64,000 nucleotides of DNA from Vicingaceae bacterium (GTDB lineage: Bacteria; Bacteroidota; Bacteroidia; Flavobacteriales_E; Vicingaceae). The translations under genes and the position numbers were made by a program. A model generated the notes under the pieces. The model did not search any database and was not told the DNA's origin. It saw only the letters and a list, made by a program, of their open reading frames with translations. Positions 55,752 through 64,000 of the stretch are shown here, one piece after another (position 1 is the first letter of the stretch; each line of letters opens with the position of its first letter). Location of the stretch: contig BPHE01000010.1 in NCBI GenBank assembly GCA_026003395.1, positions 1 to 64,000 of the forward strand, written 5' to 3'.

Positions 55752-57239
55752 ATGAAAACTAAGTTACACTTTTTGGGGATTTTATTATTTTGGGGGGCGT
55801 TATTTCCATTGTTTGCACAAAATGTGCCGGGAAATATCAATTATCAGGTAGTAGTGAGGGATCTTAACGGATACCCGCTTGTGAATCAAACGGTAAATTT
55901 GCGTTTTTCGTTCTATCAAGGAGACCCTAATCTTGGTATTTTGGAATACCAAGAAGAGCACACAGGATTAAATACCGGCAATTTGGGTTTGATCAATGTG
56001 AAAATTGGTTCCGGTACGTATTTAGGTGGTAGTTCGACCTCATTGAATGGTATCAATTGGTCTAGCGCAAACATTTGGCTGAAAATAGAAGTCGATGACG
56101 GAAATGGTTATCAAAGCATAGGGTCAGACCGGCTCATCAGTGTTCCATATGCATTTTATTGCGAGAATACTTCTAATACCGTTGTGGGACCGACCGGTCC
56201 GACAGGTCCAACCGGAGCACAAGGTATTCAGGGACCAACCGGTCCGACAGGTCCAACCGGAGCGCAAGGTATTCAGGGACCGACCGGTCCGACAGGTCCA
56301 ACCGGAGCGCAGGGTATTCAGGGACCGACCGGTCCGACAGGTCCAACCGGAGCACAAGGTATTCAGGGACCAACCGGTCCGACAGGACCTTCTCCTTCTA
56401 ATTCTACAGAAGCCACTTTGCTAAAGGTATGGTCTACGTTGGGTAATGCCAACATAAACCCCGCAACAAATTTTCTTGGGACCACTGACAATAATCCTTT
56501 GATATTGAAAGTAAACGGAACTGAAAAAATGAAAATAATCTCACCTTCCGGATTGATATCTATGGGCTATAGTTTTACACCGGAGGCACAATTGCATGTG
56601 AGAAGAAATAATTCAGTTCCCAATAGTGTTTTTCAATTGGGGAATATCAATCAACCAAATTATGAATGGGTTTTTGATGTTGATAACTCGGGCAATTTTT
56701 CTTTAAATAATGAAAACAATGGAAGTCCTTTTGGTGTTATGAACGTTGCTTCTTCTCCACATTTTAATATGGGTTTATACAGTCCGCCCGCAGCTTTGAA
56801 TGAATCGCGTGTTAGAATAAATGCAAAAAATTCATCCAATGCCCTGCAAATTGACAGCGGTCACTTTAAAGCCACAGGTCCTTCTGTAATTTTTTCACAG
56901 TCCTTTAATTCTTTTTTAACACCACCGGCTGTGAACCTCATGAATGCAAATGACGTGAAAGGGGTAATCAATCATTCATTTTCAACAAATGTTTCCTCTT
57001 CATCCACTGCAGTATATGAAGGTGAAATTAAATTTTCCAAAACATACAATACATCTCCAACAGTCATCCTGACACCGGAATTTTCAACAATTTCTGCAAG
57101 TGACATTTTAAATTATTCAATACAATTAACCGATGTGCAGCCCGGTTATTTTAAATATTCCATTATATATCGAAACGCAACTCTTATCAATATATCTATT
57201 AGTGGATTAATTAGAGTACATTATTTTGTCATCGAATAA
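55752..57239 (+). CDS. Secreted collagen-like repeat protein
   Basis: 495 residues. Signal peptide [23 protein letters not shown]. Residues about 24-140 form a beta domain ([19 protein letters not shown]... [11 protein letters not shown]) widely found at the N-terminus of Bacteroidota surface proteins. Residues 146-213 are 22 Gly-X-Y triplets built from a 15-residue unit [15 protein letters not shown], a bacterial collagen-like stalk. About 421-495 ([13 protein letters not shown]...[11 protein letters not shown]) resembles an H-type lectin-like beta sandwich; this is tentative. There is no recognisable T9SS sorting domain, so its route to the surface is unclear. It is followed, 12 bases on, by a small type B T9SS cargo gene. 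Confidence 0.8.
56187..56390 (+). repeat. Tandem 45-base collagen-like repeat, 4.5 copies
   Basis: Four full units of 45 bases (56187-56366) and a partial unit (to 56390) encode [15 protein letters not shown]. The copies differ only at a few third positions (for example gcacaa versus gcgcag), showing recent expansion by slippage or unequal recombination while the frame is kept. Confidence 0.92.
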
Positions 57240-57251
57240 AATTTTGTGAGC

Positions 57252-57983
57252 ATGAAAAAACAGATAGTTCTCACATATAAAATAATATTCTATGCTTTAA
57301 TGTCAGGATTCCCGTTTGTCAACTTGTTTTCCCAAAGCTTGTTGTCAACATTTGGAAAAACCCAAACTGTAAATAATCGCTTGTACACATACAGTGTGGG
57401 AGAAGCTGTTGTTTTTACGGGGTCTGTGAATAATGTCATACTGACGCAAGGATTTCAACAACCCAAAATTGGAGATTCTTTGCAAGTGAATGTAATCATC
57501 CAACAACCTACATGCCTTGACGCAACCGACGGAAGCATACTTTTGGAGATTCCCGGTTGTAACTCGTGTTATGTTGTGTGGGTAGACAATAATGACACAA
57601 CAAAATACCGGCAGAACTTGCCTCCGGGGGAATATGTGGTAATGGTTTACGGAAATGCCGGTCAATGGCAGGATACCATTCGTCTAAGTCCTCAATTTGA
57701 AGGACCTTGTAACATTATAGTTTATAGTGGATTCTCTCCAAACTTCGACGGAGTGAATGACGCATGGATTATTGAAAACATAAATTTATATTTGCCTAAT
57801 AAGGTAGAAATCTATAATCGTTGGGGAGTGAAAGTTTGGCAAGGTCAAAATTATGATAATAAAACCGTGGTATGGAGAGGAGAAAATATTGAAAATGGAA
57901 AAATTTTACCTCCGGGAACCTATTTTTATCTAATAGAAATATCAAATCAAACTTTAAAAGGATGGGTACAACTAACAAAATAA
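57252..57983 (+). CDS. Small surface protein with type B T9SS sorting domain
   Basis: 243 residues from the ATG at 57252 (a GTG two codons upstream is possible). Signal peptide ending near VNLFSQ. Residues about 30-75 (YTYSVGEAVVFTGSVNNVILTQGFQQP) are a motif common at the start of T9SS cargo proteins. About 84-145 (IIQQPTCLDATDGSILLEIPG...NLPPGEYVVMV) is one SprB-like repeat. Residues 153-243 (SGFSPNFDGVNDAW...NRWGVKVWQG...LKGWVQLTK) are a type B sorting domain. The passenger is therefore very small, about 120 residues. Its end overlaps the PorP/SprF gene by 22 bases, consistent with a cargo and its dedicated PorP partner. Confidence 0.85.
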   Translation: MKKQIVLTYKIIFYALMSGFPFVNLFSQSLLSTFGKTQTVNNRLYTYSVGEAVVFTGSVNNVILTQGFQQPKIGDSLQVNVIIQQPTCLDATDGSILLEIPGCNSCYVVWVDNNDTTKYRQNLPPGEYVVMVYGNAGQWQDTIRLSPQFEGPCNIIVYSGFSPNFDGVNDAWIIENINLYLPNKVEIYNRWGVKVWQGQNYDNKTVVWRGENIENGKILPPGTYFYLIEISNQTLKGWVQLTK

Positions 57984-58897
57984 AAATTAAGGACAAATAT
58001 GTTTTAGCCCTTATATTTTTTGCTTTCAGCGTTATTTTAAAAGCGCAGCAGGTCCCATTATACAACCAATACATTTTCAACCCATTGGAATTAAACCCTG
58101 CTTATGCAGGGACCCGTAACACATTAAGTGCGGTGTTGATTCACCGTAGTCAATGGACAGCTTTAGATGGTGCACCAAGAACTCAAAATTTAGCCATTCA
58201 TTCACCATTTAAAAAAGAAAATATGGCACTAGGAGGGTTGATTACCCATGATGCCATCGGACCTACCAACAGCTTTAAAATAGGAGGTATCTATGCTTAC
58301 AAAATTAAGGCAGGTAAAGGACAATTAGGGTTGGGACTCAGAGCCGGAATTCACTATATACAGTTTGATTGGAATAAAATTTCATACAAAGACCCCATGG
58401 AACCAACGGCAAGTGTGGGTAAAACATATGATATAAACCCGGATTTTTCATTTGGTATATTTTACAATACAAATTCCTTTTTCACCGGCCTGGCTTTTGA
58501 TCAGTTATTTCCTGCCAAATTAAACTTTACTGATTCTTCTTCAAAAGAAAATCGTTTATATCGTCATCCCAACTTTTTAATAGGTAAAGCATTCAAATTG
58601 GATGAAGAAGTGATTTTTCGCCCTTCACTTTTGATTCGTTCGGTTGAGCAAATTACCGGAACAGCCGATTTGAATATAAGTTTTTTGTTTTTCAACCAAA
58701 TTTGGTTTGGTTTTTCGTTAAGAAGTGGATATGGCTTAGCCCTGCTGACCGAATATCAATTCTCCAATGGCCTACGGGTTGGGTATTCGGTTGACAGACC
58801 TTCTAATAACTTAAAAGGTTATTCAGGGTTAACTCATGAGATTTTTGTAGGTTGGGATTTAGTTAAACAAAAGACTGCAAATCCAAGGTTTTTCTAA
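57962..58897 (+). CDS. PorP/SprF family T9SS outer-membrane protein
   Basis: 311 residues. Signal peptide (YVLALIFFAFSVILKAQ) then QQVPLYNQYIFNPLELNPAYAGTRNTLSAVLIHRSQW, the PorP/SprF signature. Barrel-type strands follow (FSFGIFYNTNSFFTGLAFDQLFP; LRVGYSVDRPSNNLKGYSGLTHEIFVGWDL). SprF-type proteins are needed to secrete or attach the type B cargo encoded beside them. The gene overlaps the small type B cargo gene and is followed one base later by the PorE-like gene. Confidence 0.92.
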   Translation: MGTTNKIKIKDKYVLALIFFAFSVILKAQQVPLYNQYIFNPLELNPAYAGTRNTLSAVLIHRSQWTALDGAPRTQNLAIHSPFKKENMALGGLITHDAIGPTNSFKIGGIYAYKIKAGKGQLGLGLRAGIHYIQFDWNKISYKDPMEPTASVGKTYDINPDFSFGIFYNTNSFFTGLAFDQLFPAKLNFTDSSSKENRLYRHPNFLIGKAFKLDEEVIFRPSLLIRSVEQITGTADLNISFLFFNQIWFGFSLRSGYGLALLTEYQFSNGLRVGYSVDRPSNNLKGYSGLTHEIFVGWDLVKQKTANPRFF

Positions 58898-58898
58898 G

Positions 58899-61220
58899 AT
58901 GGGCTTACAAAATTTTGTGATTTTTATTTTTATACATTTTCTTTTGAATCAATATAATTTGTATTCATTCAATGATGATAAAAATATTGAAAAGGCACTT
59001 CATCTCCAACAACAACATCAATATTTTAGAGCAGCCGCCATTTATCAAAAAATTCTGAAAAAACAACCGGAAAATATCGATGCATTAAAAGGTTTAATTT
59101 TATGTTACATAAAAACAGGTAATTATCTTGAAGCATTACCTAAATTACAAACCCTGACAAAGTTGACGGATGATAAGGAATGGAAGTTTAGATATGCCCA
59201 AATATTGAAAATCACCGGAAATCTTGCCGATGCCAAAAATCAGTTAAACCTGATATTACAAAAATATCCCGGAGATTTGATGACCGAATTGTTTCTCCGG
59301 AGATTGAACGAAATGGAAAAATGGGATATTGACCCTCAATGGTTTAGCATTCATTATGATGAATGGATCAATAGTATTTATCATGATTATGCTCCGGTAA
59401 TGATTGACAATTCGATTTTTTTTGTTAGCAATCGTCCGTTTGATCTGATAGAGTATTTGAAAGATCCAAACGGAAAATTTTATTATAGCCATATATTTCG
59501 TCAGGTTAAATCAAAAAAAAAGATAAAACCTTTAAAAGGAGAGATTAATGGATTATGGCATACCGGTCCAATGACCTATGCTCCGGCAACAAAAAAGATA
59601 ATTTTTAGTAAAATTTCACTGGATATTAAAAACCAACAAAGGGTTTATAAGCCACAACTCTATGAAGGAGAATGGTCAAAAGGCAAAATTGTTAATATTC
59701 GTCCATTGCCTTTCATCAACGGAGAGTATTCATTTACACATCCCGCTCTTAGCAACGATGGTAAAATGCTTGTGTTTTCTTCTGATATGCCCGGAGGTAA
59801 AGGAGGTATGGATCTCTGGTATTCTGTATTTGAAAATGGTCAATGGTCGCAACCGGTAAATTTGGGGGATAGCGTTAACACCCAAGGAGATGAGGTTTTT
59901 CCATATTTGTTTCAAAATTTTTTGTATTTTTCGTCTAACGGTTGGCCCGGTGCAGGAGGTCTGGATATTTTTAGATCAACAATTGTCAATAATAAAAGTT
60001 GGTCAACTCCAATAAATATGCGAACTCCGTTAAACAGTAAATTCGATGATTTTGGCATTTGTTTTATCAATGACTCCACCGGATATTTTAGTAGTTCCAG
60101 ACCCGGAGGGCTTGGTTTCGATGACATTTACAAGTTTACTTTCCATGGAATTCAATATACTCCTTACACAGATATTCAAGGTATTGTGGAATTCTATAAA
60201 CTTCCTGTGTCCGGTTTAAAATTACAATTGTTGGATGTCAATGAAAACTTATTGGACTCAACCACAACCAACCAAGAGGGTTACTTTTCTTTTTCCCATG
60301 TTACACCGGATGTGGACTATTTGATAAAAATAAACATCGATGAAGGCAAATTACCTAAAAATAAGAAAGATAAGAATATTTATCTCTTAAACACCAAAAA
60401 AGAAAAAATTGCCAAAGGGGATGAGTATAAATCAGGATATTTTAGATTTAAAGCACTAAGCCCTAACCAGGCAGATAAATTGCCATTATTGATAGAAAAA
60501 GACGAGGATTTATTGACAGTATCAGTTTATGGACAGGTTTATAAAATACTTCCGGGAGATTACAATAAAAAAGTTGATGTTTTAATAGAAGATCAAAAAG
60601 GAAATATTTTAGGTAAAATAAAAACTGACGAAAAAGGGAAATTTGTGTTTGAGAATCTTCCTCCCGATATAAAATATAAAATTAAATTGATGAATGAAGG
60701 AGAAGATTTAAAAGTTATTATTACCGATGAAAAGGGAAATATTTTAGATAGGTTAACAAAGCTTAAAGATGGAACATTTGAATATGTTAGGTTAGACCCC
60801 GATCAAAGTTTCATAACATTGTTAAATGAAAATGATGAGGTTATAAAAATAAAATTTAAGGAAAAATTTGTCATGTCGAAAATTTACTATGAATATGATA
60901 GTTGGGAAATTACCCCGGAATCTGCCCAAATATTGGATAAATTGGCCGAAATTCTTAAAAAGAATGAAAACATTAAGGTAACTTTGGGTTCCCATACCGA
61001 CTCAAGAGCAAGTGATAAATATAATTTGGATCTTTCTAAAAAGAGAGCCGATGCAGCAGTAAAATATTTGATCAGTAAGGGTGTGGATCCGTCAAGAATC
61101 AAAGGAATTGGATATGGTGAATCACAACCGGTGAATCATTGCGTTAATGGTGTTGAATGCAGCGAAGAAGAACATGCAAAAAACAGAAGAACTGAAATTA
61201 TCATCGAAACAATTAAGTAA
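58899..61220 (+). CDS. PorE-like protein: TPR, beta-propeller, carboxypeptidase-regulatory and OmpA domains
   Basis: 773 residues. An N-terminal signal-like hydrophobic segment (FVIFIFIHFLLNQYNLYSF) precedes TPR repeats (about 28-130; YFRAAAIYQKILKKQPENIDALKG). A six-bladed PD40-type propeller follows (about 150-410; FSSDMPGGKGGMDLWYS, YFSSNGWPGAGGLDIFRS, YFSSSRPGGLGFDDIYK). Carboxypeptidase-regulatory-like beta domains occupy about 425-640, including the repeated DEKGN-type turns. The OmpA peptidoglycan-binding domain is 657-773 (GSHTDSRASDKYNLDLSKKRADA...NRRTEI). This domain order is that of PorE of Porphyromonas gingivalis, which anchors the T9SS to peptidoglycan and binds PorP. No lipobox is seen, unlike some homologues. 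It would tether the adjacent PorP/SprF. Confidence 0.88.
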   Translation: MGLQNFVIFIFIHFLLNQYNLYSFNDDKNIEKALHLQQQHQYFRAAAIYQKILKKQPENIDALKGLILCYIKTGNYLEALPKLQTLTKLTDDKEWKFRYAQILKITGNLADAKNQLNLILQKYPGDLMTELFLRRLNEMEKWDIDPQWFSIHYDEWINSIYHDYAPVMIDNSIFFVSNRPFDLIEYLKDPNGKFYYSHIFRQVKSKKKIKPLKGEINGLWHTGPMTYAPATKKIIFSKISLDIKNQQRVYKPQLYEGEWSKGKIVNIRPLPFINGEYSFTHPALSNDGKMLVFSSDMPGGKGGMDLWYSVFENGQWSQPVNLGDSVNTQGDEVFPYLFQNFLYFSSNGWPGAGGLDIFRSTIVNNKSWSTPINMRTPLNSKFDDFGICFINDSTGYFSSSRPGGLGFDDIYKFTFHGIQYTPYTDIQGIVEFYKLPVSGLKLQLLDVNENLLDSTTTNQEGYFSFSHVTPDVDYLIKINIDEGKLPKNKKDKNIYLLNTKKEKIAKGDEYKSGYFRFKALSPNQADKLPLLIEKDEDLLTVSVYGQVYKILPGDYNKKVDVLIEDQKGNILGKIKTDEKGKFVFENLPPDIKYKIKLMNEGEDLKVIITDEKGNILDRLTKLKDGTFEYVRLDPDQSFITLLNENDEVIKIKFKEKFVMSKIYYEYDSWEITPESAQILDKLAEILKKNENIKVTLGSHTDSRASDKYNLDLSKKRADAAVKYLISKGVDPSRIKGIGYGESQPVNHCVNGVECSEEEHAKNRRTEIIIETIK

Positions 61221-64000
61221 GTGGATCCCATTGGGATTGCTTTTTGTTTTTTTTCAAATATTTCTTAATGCTCAGAATGTCAATACTGCATTTTCTGCAA
61301 ATGATATTTATTTTAAATCGATCAATTTAAATGAAGGGTTATCTCAAAGTACAATCAATGATATTATTTCTGATCGTTATGGAAATGTTTGGATTGCTAC
61401 ACAAGATGGTTTAAATCGTTTTAATGGCATTTCTTTTAAAACATATTTCCATACAATAAAAGACAGTGGATCTATTGCGCATAACCACATACAAAAGCTG
61501 GCTTTGATAAATGATTCTGTTTTGTTGATCGCTACCCAGGCCGGACTAAATATCTATCAACCTTTTGGAGATCGTTTTGAACTATTAAAGTTAGAGGGAT
61601 TTACTCACAATTCATTTACTGCTGTTGAAAACGAATATCCGTTTATATGGTTGGCTTCAGAGAATATTATTTTGCGGTACAATATTAAAAACGGTAAAAA
61701 ATACATTTTCAATATTCCTGAAAATAACTTGATTCATTGTTTAGCATTGGATGCGCATGGTAACCTGTGGATTGGCTGTGAAAATTCCGGACTTTATATT
61801 TTGAAAAAAAATACTTCTATCCCCCAAAGAATCCTGTCAGATTTAACCGTCAATCACATAGTGCATCATCATGATGATACCTATGTTGCCACCAACAAAG
61901 GGCTGAAAATTTTCAAAACTAAATCATTTATGTTGCTCAATATCCCTGAAAAATTTCAATTTTTGAAAAATACTCTCTTAACTTATATATATCCTGACTC
62001 CGAAAATGCCTTATGGATTGGAACCGACGATAGGGGTCTGTTTCACTTGCAAGAAAATAAGGTTGATCATTACAAGCACAATCCCTTTGTTAATTACACG
62101 ATTAACAGCAACCATATCAATAAAATTTACAGAGATAAATTTGGCATATATTGGATTGCCACTGACAATGGAATGAATTATTTCGATCCTTATAAACAAT
62201 TCTTCAAAAGAATTACTCATAACCCATTGGATATATATTCTCTATCCAACCCAATTATTTGGTCTGTTTATAAAAAATCCGATACCCTTTTGATAGGTAC
62301 AGACAAAACATTAGACATTTTTGTGAATAATCAAAAATCGGCATCGTTGACATTACCTTTCGAGAAACTACGAAAAAGTATTTTTTGTATTGCGGACATA
62401 AAGGGAGTTTTTCATATAGGTTGTGAAGATGGTGTATATGTTTTGTCTCCCGGGAAAAGAAGTTTATTGAAAAGCCGCACATTTTACGATATCAAAAACA
62501 GGGTTTACTGTATTCTGCCGACAGGTAAAGGAATTATTTTTGGTACACGCAATGGTATATTTTGGTATTCATATGAACAGAAAAAATTGTTTTATCATCT
62601 GTTGAGTGAAAATTTACAAGATAAAAAAACCGAAATAATCAGAACTATTATCCCTGTTGATGATACAACATTTTATGCCGGCAGCGATCAACATGGTATT
62701 TTTAAAATTACCATTCAAGAAAAAAAACTTTCTGACAACCCCATTGCATATTCCTATGCCTGGGAATATGGTAGTGATACTTTTAACCTTAATAATCCCA
62801 CAATTTTATCTTTATATTTTGACAAGGATAACCGTGTTCTTTGGGCCGGAACCTATGGTGGCGGTATCAATAAAATATATACAGATAAAAATAGAGTCGA
62901 ATATATTACATCTGCCGAGGGGCTTGCCAATAATGTTATTTATGGAATTTTGAAAGATGATAAAAATAATATTTGGGTCAGTACCAACCGGGGAATTTCC
63001 AAAATTGCCTCAAATGGCACCATACAGAATTTTTACGAATCTGATGGGTTACAAAGCAATGAATTTAACACCGGTGCATATTTTTATGATCGAATGTCCA
63101 ATACACTTTATTTTGGCGGTGTATCGGGCGTAAGTTTTTTTAATCCGGATCAAATACAAATAAACCCCTTTCCTCCGGAAATATTGCTCGACAGGATTCT
63201 TCTTTTTAACAAACCGATTCAATGGAACAACCCTGTTGTTGAAAAAATTGATTCAACTGTTCATCTAAAATTCCCCAGCCATCTTAATGTTTTTTCTTTG
63301 GAGTTAACAACCATTCATTTTTCATCACCATCAAAAAATGTCATTCAATACCGTTTAGAACCTTTTGATTTGAGTTGGTTGCAAACCGGTAGTCATGCCA
63401 CCATTACATATACGAACCTTGATCCGGGCACTTATCACCTCAAAGCAAGGGCTGCCAATAGCGATAATGTATGGACGGATGAAAAAGTTATAGCCATCAT
63501 TACAATTCTACCTCCATATTGGCAAACCTGGTGGTTTAGAATTTTAGCGGCCATTGTGCTTTCGGGTCTTGCCTATGTGATTTATTATATTCGTGTTAAA
63601 AACATCGAAGCTCAAAAGGCATATCTCGAAAAACTGGTACAAAAAAGAACCGCCGAAATATCACTACAAAAACAAAAAATAGAAGAACAAAAAAAATTGC
63701 TGGAAGAAGAAAAGAAAAAAGTAGAGAATTTGTTATTGAACATATTGCCTGAAGAAACAGTAGAGGAATTGAAAACTAAAGGCAAAGCGGCTCCCCGGAG
63801 CTATCGAATGGCTTCTGTTATGTTTTGTGATTTTAAAGGATTTACCCAAATCGCCGAGAAGTTACGCCCTAAAGATCTGGTAGCACAGCTCGATGCATTT
63901 TTCATCAAATTTGATGAAATTATTAGTAAGCACAATTTAGAAAAGATAAAAACTATGGGAGATGCTTATATGGCGGCCGGAGGCATTCCCATACGCAATA
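61174..64000 (+). CDS. Receptor-type class III adenylate cyclase with sensor propeller (partial, runs off the right edge)
   Basis: 942 codons are open from the ATG at 61174 to the window end with no stop. Residues 1-34 give a signal peptide or anchor (WIPLGLLFVFFQIFLNAQ). A two-component-regulator propeller follows (about 45-690) with repeats such as GLSQSTINDIISDRYGNVW and WIATQDGLNRFNG, then a Y_Y_Y domain (about 700-780). One membrane helix (about 784-805, FRILAAIVLSGLAYVIYYI) leads to a Glu/Lys-rich coiled coil (about 812-845) and a class III cyclase domain with metal Asp886 (VMFCDFKGFT) and Asp930 (KTMGDAYMAAGG). Lys at the first purine-selecting position (IKTMGD) favours ATP over GTP; the second position lies beyond the window. 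The start overlaps the PorE-like gene by 47 bases. Expected topology: periplasmic sensor, cytoplasmic cyclase. Confidence 0.85.
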   Translation, partial: MQKTEELKLSSKQLSKWIPLGLLFVFFQIFLNAQNVNTAFSANDIYFKSINLNEGLSQSTINDIISDRYGNVWIATQDGLNRFNGISFKTYFHTIKDSGSIAHNHIQKLALINDSVLLIATQAGLNIYQPFGDRFELLKLEGFTHNSFTAVENEYPFIWLASENIILRYNIKNGKKYIFNIPENNLIHCLALDAHGNLWIGCENSGLYILKKNTSIPQRILSDLTVNHIVHHHDDTYVATNKGLKIFKTKSFMLLNIPEKFQFLKNTLLTYIYPDSENALWIGTDDRGLFHLQENKVDHYKHNPFVNYTINSNHINKIYRDKFGIYWIATDNGMNYFDPYKQFFKRITHNPLDIYSLSNPIIWSVYKKSDTLLIGTDKTLDIFVNNQKSASLTLPFEKLRKSIFCIADIKGVFHIGCEDGVYVLSPGKRSLLKSRTFYDIKNRVYCILPTGKGIIFGTRNGIFWYSYEQKKLFYHLLSENLQDKKTEIIRTIIPVDDTTFYAGSDQHGIFKITIQEKKLSDNPIAYSYAWEYGSDTFNLNNPTILSLYFDKDNRVLWAGTYGGGINKIYTDKNRVEYITSAEGLANNVIYGILKDDKNNIWVSTNRGISKIASNGTIQNFYESDGLQSNEFNTGAYFYDRMSNTLYFGGVSGVSFFNPDQIQINPFPPEILLDRILLFNKPIQWNNPVVEKIDSTVHLKFPSHLNVFSLELTTIHFSSPSKNVIQYRLEPFDLSWLQTGSHATITYTNLDPGTYHLKARAANSDNVWTDEKVIAIITILPPYWQTWWFRILAAIVLSGLAYVIYYIRVKNIEAQKAYLEKLVQKRTAEISLQKQKIEEQKKLLEEEKKKVENLLLNILPEETVEELKTKGKAAPRSYRMASVMFCDFKGFTQIAEKLRPKDLVAQLDAFFIKFDEIISKHNLEKIKTMGDAYMAAGGIPIRN

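Follow-up and report, generated by a model that had tools for sequence, protein, structure and literature searches.

At the 3′ end of a 64,000-nucleotide stretch of contig BPHE01000010.1 of Vicingaceae bacterium (the window, numbered from its first letter as position 1) are closely packed genes for a small cargo, a PorP and a PorE-like protein of the type IX secretion system (T9SS), directly followed by a gene for a receptor-type adenylate cyclase with an HD domain. With the fibre protein gene before them, they look like one unit in the order fibre–cargo–PorP–PorE–cyclase (Table 1). The last four open reading frames lie where the initial annotation had placed them: the cargo and PorP frames share 22 bases, a 1-base gap separates PorP from the PorE-like gene, and the PorE-like and cyclase frames overlap by 47 bases from the ATG at 61174 (74 from an in-frame ATG at 61147), with a GTG at 57246 as a possible alternative start of the cargo. 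Its family assignments, a type B cargo, a PorP/SprF protein, a PorE-like anchor and a propeller/Y_Y_Y/cyclase receptor, agree with the Pfam and NCBIfam matches. The cyclase is followed by atp genes in convergent orientation, and a terminator-like hairpin separates the two.

Table 1 Features of the Vicingaceae locus, in window positions unless marked as contig positions
Feature	Position	Strand	Evidence and remarks
Fibre protein gene	55752..57239	+	Domain matches; no second copy in the genome; 12 bases between its end and the cargo
Small T9SS type B cargo, 243 aa	57252..57983	+	CHU_C, TIGR04131
PorP/SprF-family outer-membrane protein, 311 aa	57962..58897	+	PF11751, TIGR03519
PorE-like anchor, 773 aa	58899..61220	+	TPR, PD40, carboxypeptidase-regulatory-like and OmpA domains
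Receptor-type class III adenylate cyclase with HD domain, 1281 aa	61174..64000 in the window, end at contig base 65019	+	PF00211, PF01966
Periplasmic Reg_prop β-propeller of the cyclase	61291..63273	+	PF07494; ~residues 40–700, limits approximate
Y_Y_Y domain	63319..63498	+	PF07495; residues 716–775
Transmembrane helix, then long signalling helix	63535..63597	+	Hydropathy, predicted model; ~residues 788–808
Start of cyclase catalytic domain (D886, K926, D930)	63799..64000	+	PF00211, residue table
HD domain	contig 64510–64797, beyond the window	+	PF01966
SprA translocon gene, 2393 aa	44289–51470		TIGR04189, 2653 bits

The cargo matches CHU_C (82.3 bits) and, above the cut-off of 35 bits, the type B C-terminal domain (CTD) family TIGR04131 (48.1 bits); its orthologue in locus L087 is 38% identical. 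Directly 3′ is the cognate PorP/SprF gene, an order kept in relatives, whose product scores 222 bits against PF11751 and 218 bits against TIGR03519 (cut-off 90.55). The third protein follows the domain order of PorE, in which TPR, a PD40 propeller and a carboxypeptidase-regulatory-like domain precede a C-terminal OmpA domain of the peptidoglycan-binding type. Because its score against NCBIfam T9SS_PorE (315.5 bits) lies under the cut-off of 600 bits, it is named PorE-like. A lipobox cysteine, the lipoprotein signal, is absent from this protein and, by motif, from its orthologues (0/34). Searches of the genome's contigs, from which all genome-wide counts derive, return 18 PorP genes and many PorE-like matches.

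The cyclase is the sole PF00211 cyclase of the genome (2.54 Mb, 33 contigs). The window holds part of it, and its full length and HD domain were read from the contig beyond. By its sequence and predicted model (mean predicted local distance difference test, pLDDT, of 81.6) it groups with the class III adenylate cyclases; among solved bacterial structures, mycobacterial cyclases such as Rv1625c come closest. Residues that in class III cyclases bind metal (D886, D930), select adenine (K926, D999) and act in the transition state (N1006, R1010) are all present; D999, N1006 and R1010 are encoded just past the window end. The metal and adenine-selecting residues and N1006 show no or almost no variation across 136 relatives, and with this residue set the product is likely to be cyclic AMP (cAMP).

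At the C terminus is the HD domain, which keeps its metal motif (H1115, H1147–D1148, D1206; conserved in essentially all 136 relatives) and is modelled with a pLDDT of 94.8. Its best structural matches are YpgQ-type hydrolases, then PDE4 and PDE5, none with an E value below 0.001, and its sequence matches are weak; the domain probably removes a nucleotide product. One genus (loci L127–L131 and L133) carries a paralogous propeller-cyclase without HD, with a separate HD gene of ~193 aa directly 3′; the pair thus exists both fused and split, which suggests that the cyclase and HD activities belong together. The cyclase itself comes in two forms, a long form with propeller and Y_Y_Y domain and a short form of ~515 aa with a single N-terminal membrane helix. 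Short forms of the order to which the window's genome belongs make up one clade on the cyclase-core tree, and those with an intact PorE pair with a longer PorE of ~1100 aa.

This order comprises 46 genomes, in one family and 16 genera, of which 45 have the cyclase; its upstream side is readable in 43, on gene maps made from the DNA around the matches. The next gene upstream is PorE in 36 of the 43, and at least one linked genome is found in 15 of the 16 genera, so that the adjacency of cyclase and PorP–PorE predicted for related genomes by the initial annotation holds throughout most of the order. PorP is 5′ of PorE in 35 of 35 cases and cargo 5′ of PorP in 30 of 32, and the median gap between PorE and cyclase is 4 bases, eight of the pairs overlapping. 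Compared between genera, the slots of PorE, PorP and cargo hold homologous genes in 80%, 70% and 56% of pairs, against 8% one slot further up and 12–14% downstream; the unit has therefore been held together while its surroundings changed. In the remaining seven genomes the place of PorE is taken by a PorE remnant (G031, G033, G034) or by another gene (G002, G003, G011, G041). The remnant loci (L117, L120 and L121, in G031, G034 and G033, respectively) have lost PorP and most of PorE, and C-terminal pieces of PorE remain just 5′ of a short cyclase.

Outside the order, where 79 readable cyclase–HD loci were sampled across the class and from named genomes, the predicted adjacency fails, PorE being directly upstream in two (L165, L224). 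The proportions inside and outside (36/43 against 2/79, a comparison whose P value ignores relatedness), together with the six changes of linkage state on a cyclase-core tree of 82 rows, indicate that the linkage is old and inherited in the order and not general in Bacteroidota. The operon is real and old, and its gene order is not due to chance. The 47-base overlap of PorE and cyclase was rejected as special evidence: it is also found in genus g4 and is explained by the conserved coding sequence of the PorE C terminus, and only tight spacing in general counts. A scan without the power to exclude a promoter found no Bacteroidota-type match close upstream of the cyclase, and exact matches within the window are no more frequent than expected by chance.

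Orthologues elsewhere are located 3′ of ferritin and RNase R genes, 3′ of YfiR/TPR/SpoIIE genes, or divergent from porZ. At six loci (L154, L155, L157, L158, L184 and L228) the cyclase–HD gene lies 3′ of genes for YfiR/HmsC-like, TPR and HAMP/SpoIIE proteins, without PorE, and a YfiR-like gene before the cyclase points to envelope signalling. The proximity of porZ was not counted as a T9SS link, as at these nine Bacteroidales loci (L206, L209–L211, L213, L214, L217, L219 and L222, in Bacteroidales-type genomes) the genes are divergent with two others between. Nor were L145 and L146, with PorP near the cyclase, accepted as outside examples, since an unrelated gene (riboflavin-synthase-like by eye) intervenes.

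Upstream of the cargo is the gene of a putative fibre composed of a signal peptide, an N-terminal domain, a collagen-type (GPTGPTG) stalk and an H_lectin-like end. The N-terminal domain is named MAT_N-like because it scores 46.8 bits against NCBIfam Bdello_MAT_N, under the cut-off of 60. This N-terminal domain recurs in a gene upstream of cargo or PorP at 16 of 19 related long-cyclase loci (genus g2 left out), and of the three exceptions two run into an edge; the remaining domains vary among collagen, S74 chaperone and depolymerase C-terminal types. Among the readable g2 and short-form loci, some of them cut by an edge, a fibre gene was found in none of nine, and the fibre–cargo–PorP–PorE set is also present without the cyclase (L266, L268, L272). 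The fibre gene is probably the first gene of the unit. In its MAT_N-like N terminus and its collagen, S74 or depolymerase-type C termini, at this and related loci, the protein is like the Bdellovibrio MAT fibres, differing in a score below that family's cut-off; the text of the MAT paper does not mention Bacteroidota (PMC10769870).

The cargo–PorP–PorE part is an already known kind of gene set. A complex of a type B CTD cargo, a PorP-family barrel and a PorE-type protein has been shown in Porphyromonas gingivalis (PorE–PorP–PG1035; PMC9143113), and Flavobacterium johnsoniae has type B substrate/SprF/PorE operons, such as Fjoh_3952-3951-3950, whose suggested role is the attachment of adhesins to the cell wall (PMC12618676). 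The only PorE known to bind PorP and peptidoglycan is that of P. gingivalis (PMC9143113, PMC7192894). The Vicingaceae unit shares the cargo–PorP–PorE order of the F. johnsoniae operons and differs from both systems in its tiny cargo, in the MAT_N-like fibre gene before it and the receptor adenylate cyclase after it, and in a PorE without lipobox that falls under the NCBIfam PorE cut-off. What is new is the attachment of a receptor adenylate cyclase–HD protein to a T9SS anchoring operon.

The receptor part of the cyclase has a family resemblance to the propeller/Y_Y_Y receptors of hybrid two-component type in Bacteroidota, with which it shares the Reg_prop propeller, Y_Y_Y and one membrane helix; its output is cyclase plus HD, not a kinase or DNA-binding domain, and other propeller receptors of the same genome have HisKA_2 and SpoIIE outputs. 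With the mycobacterial Rv1625c/Cya (PDB 4p2f, 7yzk) it has in common the catalytic domain and the metal and adenine-selecting residues, whereas a propeller/Y_Y_Y periplasmic receptor stands in place of the six-helix membrane anchor and an HD domain is added at the C terminus. The pairing of an OmpA-type outer-membrane/wall protein with an inner-membrane cyclase that has a periplasmic sensor is also that of Pseudomonas aeruginosa YfiBNR (PMC4887326, PMC4655355), although YfiN is a GGDEF diguanylate cyclase and the Vicingaceae enzyme joins an HD domain to a class III adenylate cyclase. Membership in YfiBNR was rejected, because the cyclase belongs to PF00211 and lacks GGDEF, and because the four genes and their window neighbours are not YfiR-like; YfiBNR is a working analogy. 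A further parallel is the P. gingivalis PorA–PorXY–SigP route, in which a small surface T9SS CTD protein likewise signals to the cytoplasm, but by way of a sensor kinase and a sigma factor and without a PorE–cyclase unit; PorA can also reach the surface without the T9SS machinery (PMC7712824).

We read the locus, tentatively and with a chance that falls just short of even, as an operon that encodes a surface structure fixed to the wall together with a signalling enzyme of its own. After exit through the T9SS translocon, the small type B cargo would be retained on the cell surface by its PorP, which the PorE-like protein would tie to peptidoglycan, as expected from the complex and peptidoglycan contact described in other species (PMC9143113, PMC12618676); this complex would probably display the fibre protein. 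In the inner membrane, the periplasmic propeller/Y_Y_Y part of the receptor would sense something in the periplasm, most likely the condition of the anchored complex or of the nearby envelope, and the cytoplasmic part would make cAMP. The initial annotation had proposed that an outer-surface or cell-wall state is read in the periplasm and reported as cyclic nucleotide. Of this, the T9SS identity, the tight packing and the belonging of the cyclase with the cassette, whose linkage is kept while the flanks turn over, are retained; that the cyclase reads a surface or cell-wall state and reports it as cAMP is a plausible inference.

Several observations weigh against such signalling. Orthologues with the same propeller are common in genomes without PorE alongside, the cyclase persists in genomes that have lost the cassette PorE (G002, G003, G031, G033) or carry it elsewhere (G041), and short-form lineages keep the operon although they have no periplasmic sensor, nine short forms also having replaced the transition-state arginine (R1010). 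As orthologues live without PorE and sensor-less cyclases keep the operon, sensing of PorE by the propeller is not the whole story. At the output end, the likeness of the HD domain to phosphodiesterases is weak, and neither E72 nor R82 of the Escherichia coli cAMP pocket is kept in either of the genome's two PF00027 (CRP-like) proteins, so that CRP is not supported as the target of cAMP. A stricter form of the proposal, in which the fibre–cargo–PorP–PorE complex directly switches the cyclase/HD enzyme and thus turns surface contact or display into cAMP, would follow a logic like that of YfiB–YfiN (an OmpA-type protein and a membrane cyclase) with unrelated parts; we regard it as rather unlikely.

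The main rival is simple co-expression, which has a substantial, though clearly less than even, chance of being right: the cyclase would be a general envelope- or nutrient-sensing enzyme whose ligand has no connection with PorP–PorE, both being wanted under the same condition. The range of other settings in which orthologues occur favours it, as do the survival of the cyclase beyond PorE in some genomes and its wider conservation in the order than that of the cassette; but most co-regulated pairs do not require so much as a four-gene order with near-zero gaps, maintained in 15 genera during turnover of the genes on either side. A cyclase that follows the secretion of fibre or cargo and tunes the unit's expression, with no outside signal, would suit the tight operon structure and has a precedent for a small cargo in PorA, which feeds the expression control of PorXY–SigP (PMC7712824). 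We consider such feedback improbable, as the unit contains no regulator gene, no cAMP-binding regulator with the usual pocket was found in the genome, and PorA works through a two-component system, not a cyclase. Least probable is an accident of gene order, in which synteny would be neutral and not yet decayed: the linkage is passed down the tree with few changes, and its several breaks have not cost the cyclase, yet the flanking genes were exchanged in the meantime and the gaps have stayed at a few bases.

PorXY–SigP is the studied route by which Bacteroidota may perceive the placement of their T9SS surface proteins or a contact made by them. With the sole PF00211 cyclase of its genome placed after the genes of a T9SS display complex anchored to the wall, the conserved operon offers a concrete and testable place in which to look for signalling of this kind. 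If the proposed reading is right, it suggests a so far undescribed route, in an uncultured lineage of Bacteroidota, from surface state to the cell interior via cAMP. In open-access full texts we found no literature tying a native adenylate cyclase to the T9SS; the cyclases mentioned in the T9SS literature are, judging from titles and general knowledge, presumably two-hybrid reagents.

The idea that PorP is regularly accompanied by a propeller sensor was rejected, since among sampled relatives one of 31 non-cyclase Y_Y_Y proteins is near PorP. The window's own genome and G074 each provide one more case of a propeller sensor with PorP. On contig C8 of the own genome (L274:283-7601), a second propeller/Y_Y_Y receptor, with a HisKA_2 kinase output, overlaps by 11 bases the gene of a 1117-aa type B cargo, which is followed by PorP. 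In G074, of another family (L273:4662-9311 and L269:4314-9694), cargo–PorP–PorE is followed by a gene of 464 aa and then by a propeller/Y_Y_Y receptor whose output is a SpoIIE phosphatase; the genes are packed within a few bases, with the same sensor type and another output. The sprA/sov gene of the window, ~6 kb upstream of the cassette, is followed by gcvH. Contig C17 of the same genome (L275:5074-17500) carries ~4.5-kb tandem units, each composed of a large type B cargo, PorP and a 120-aa gene.

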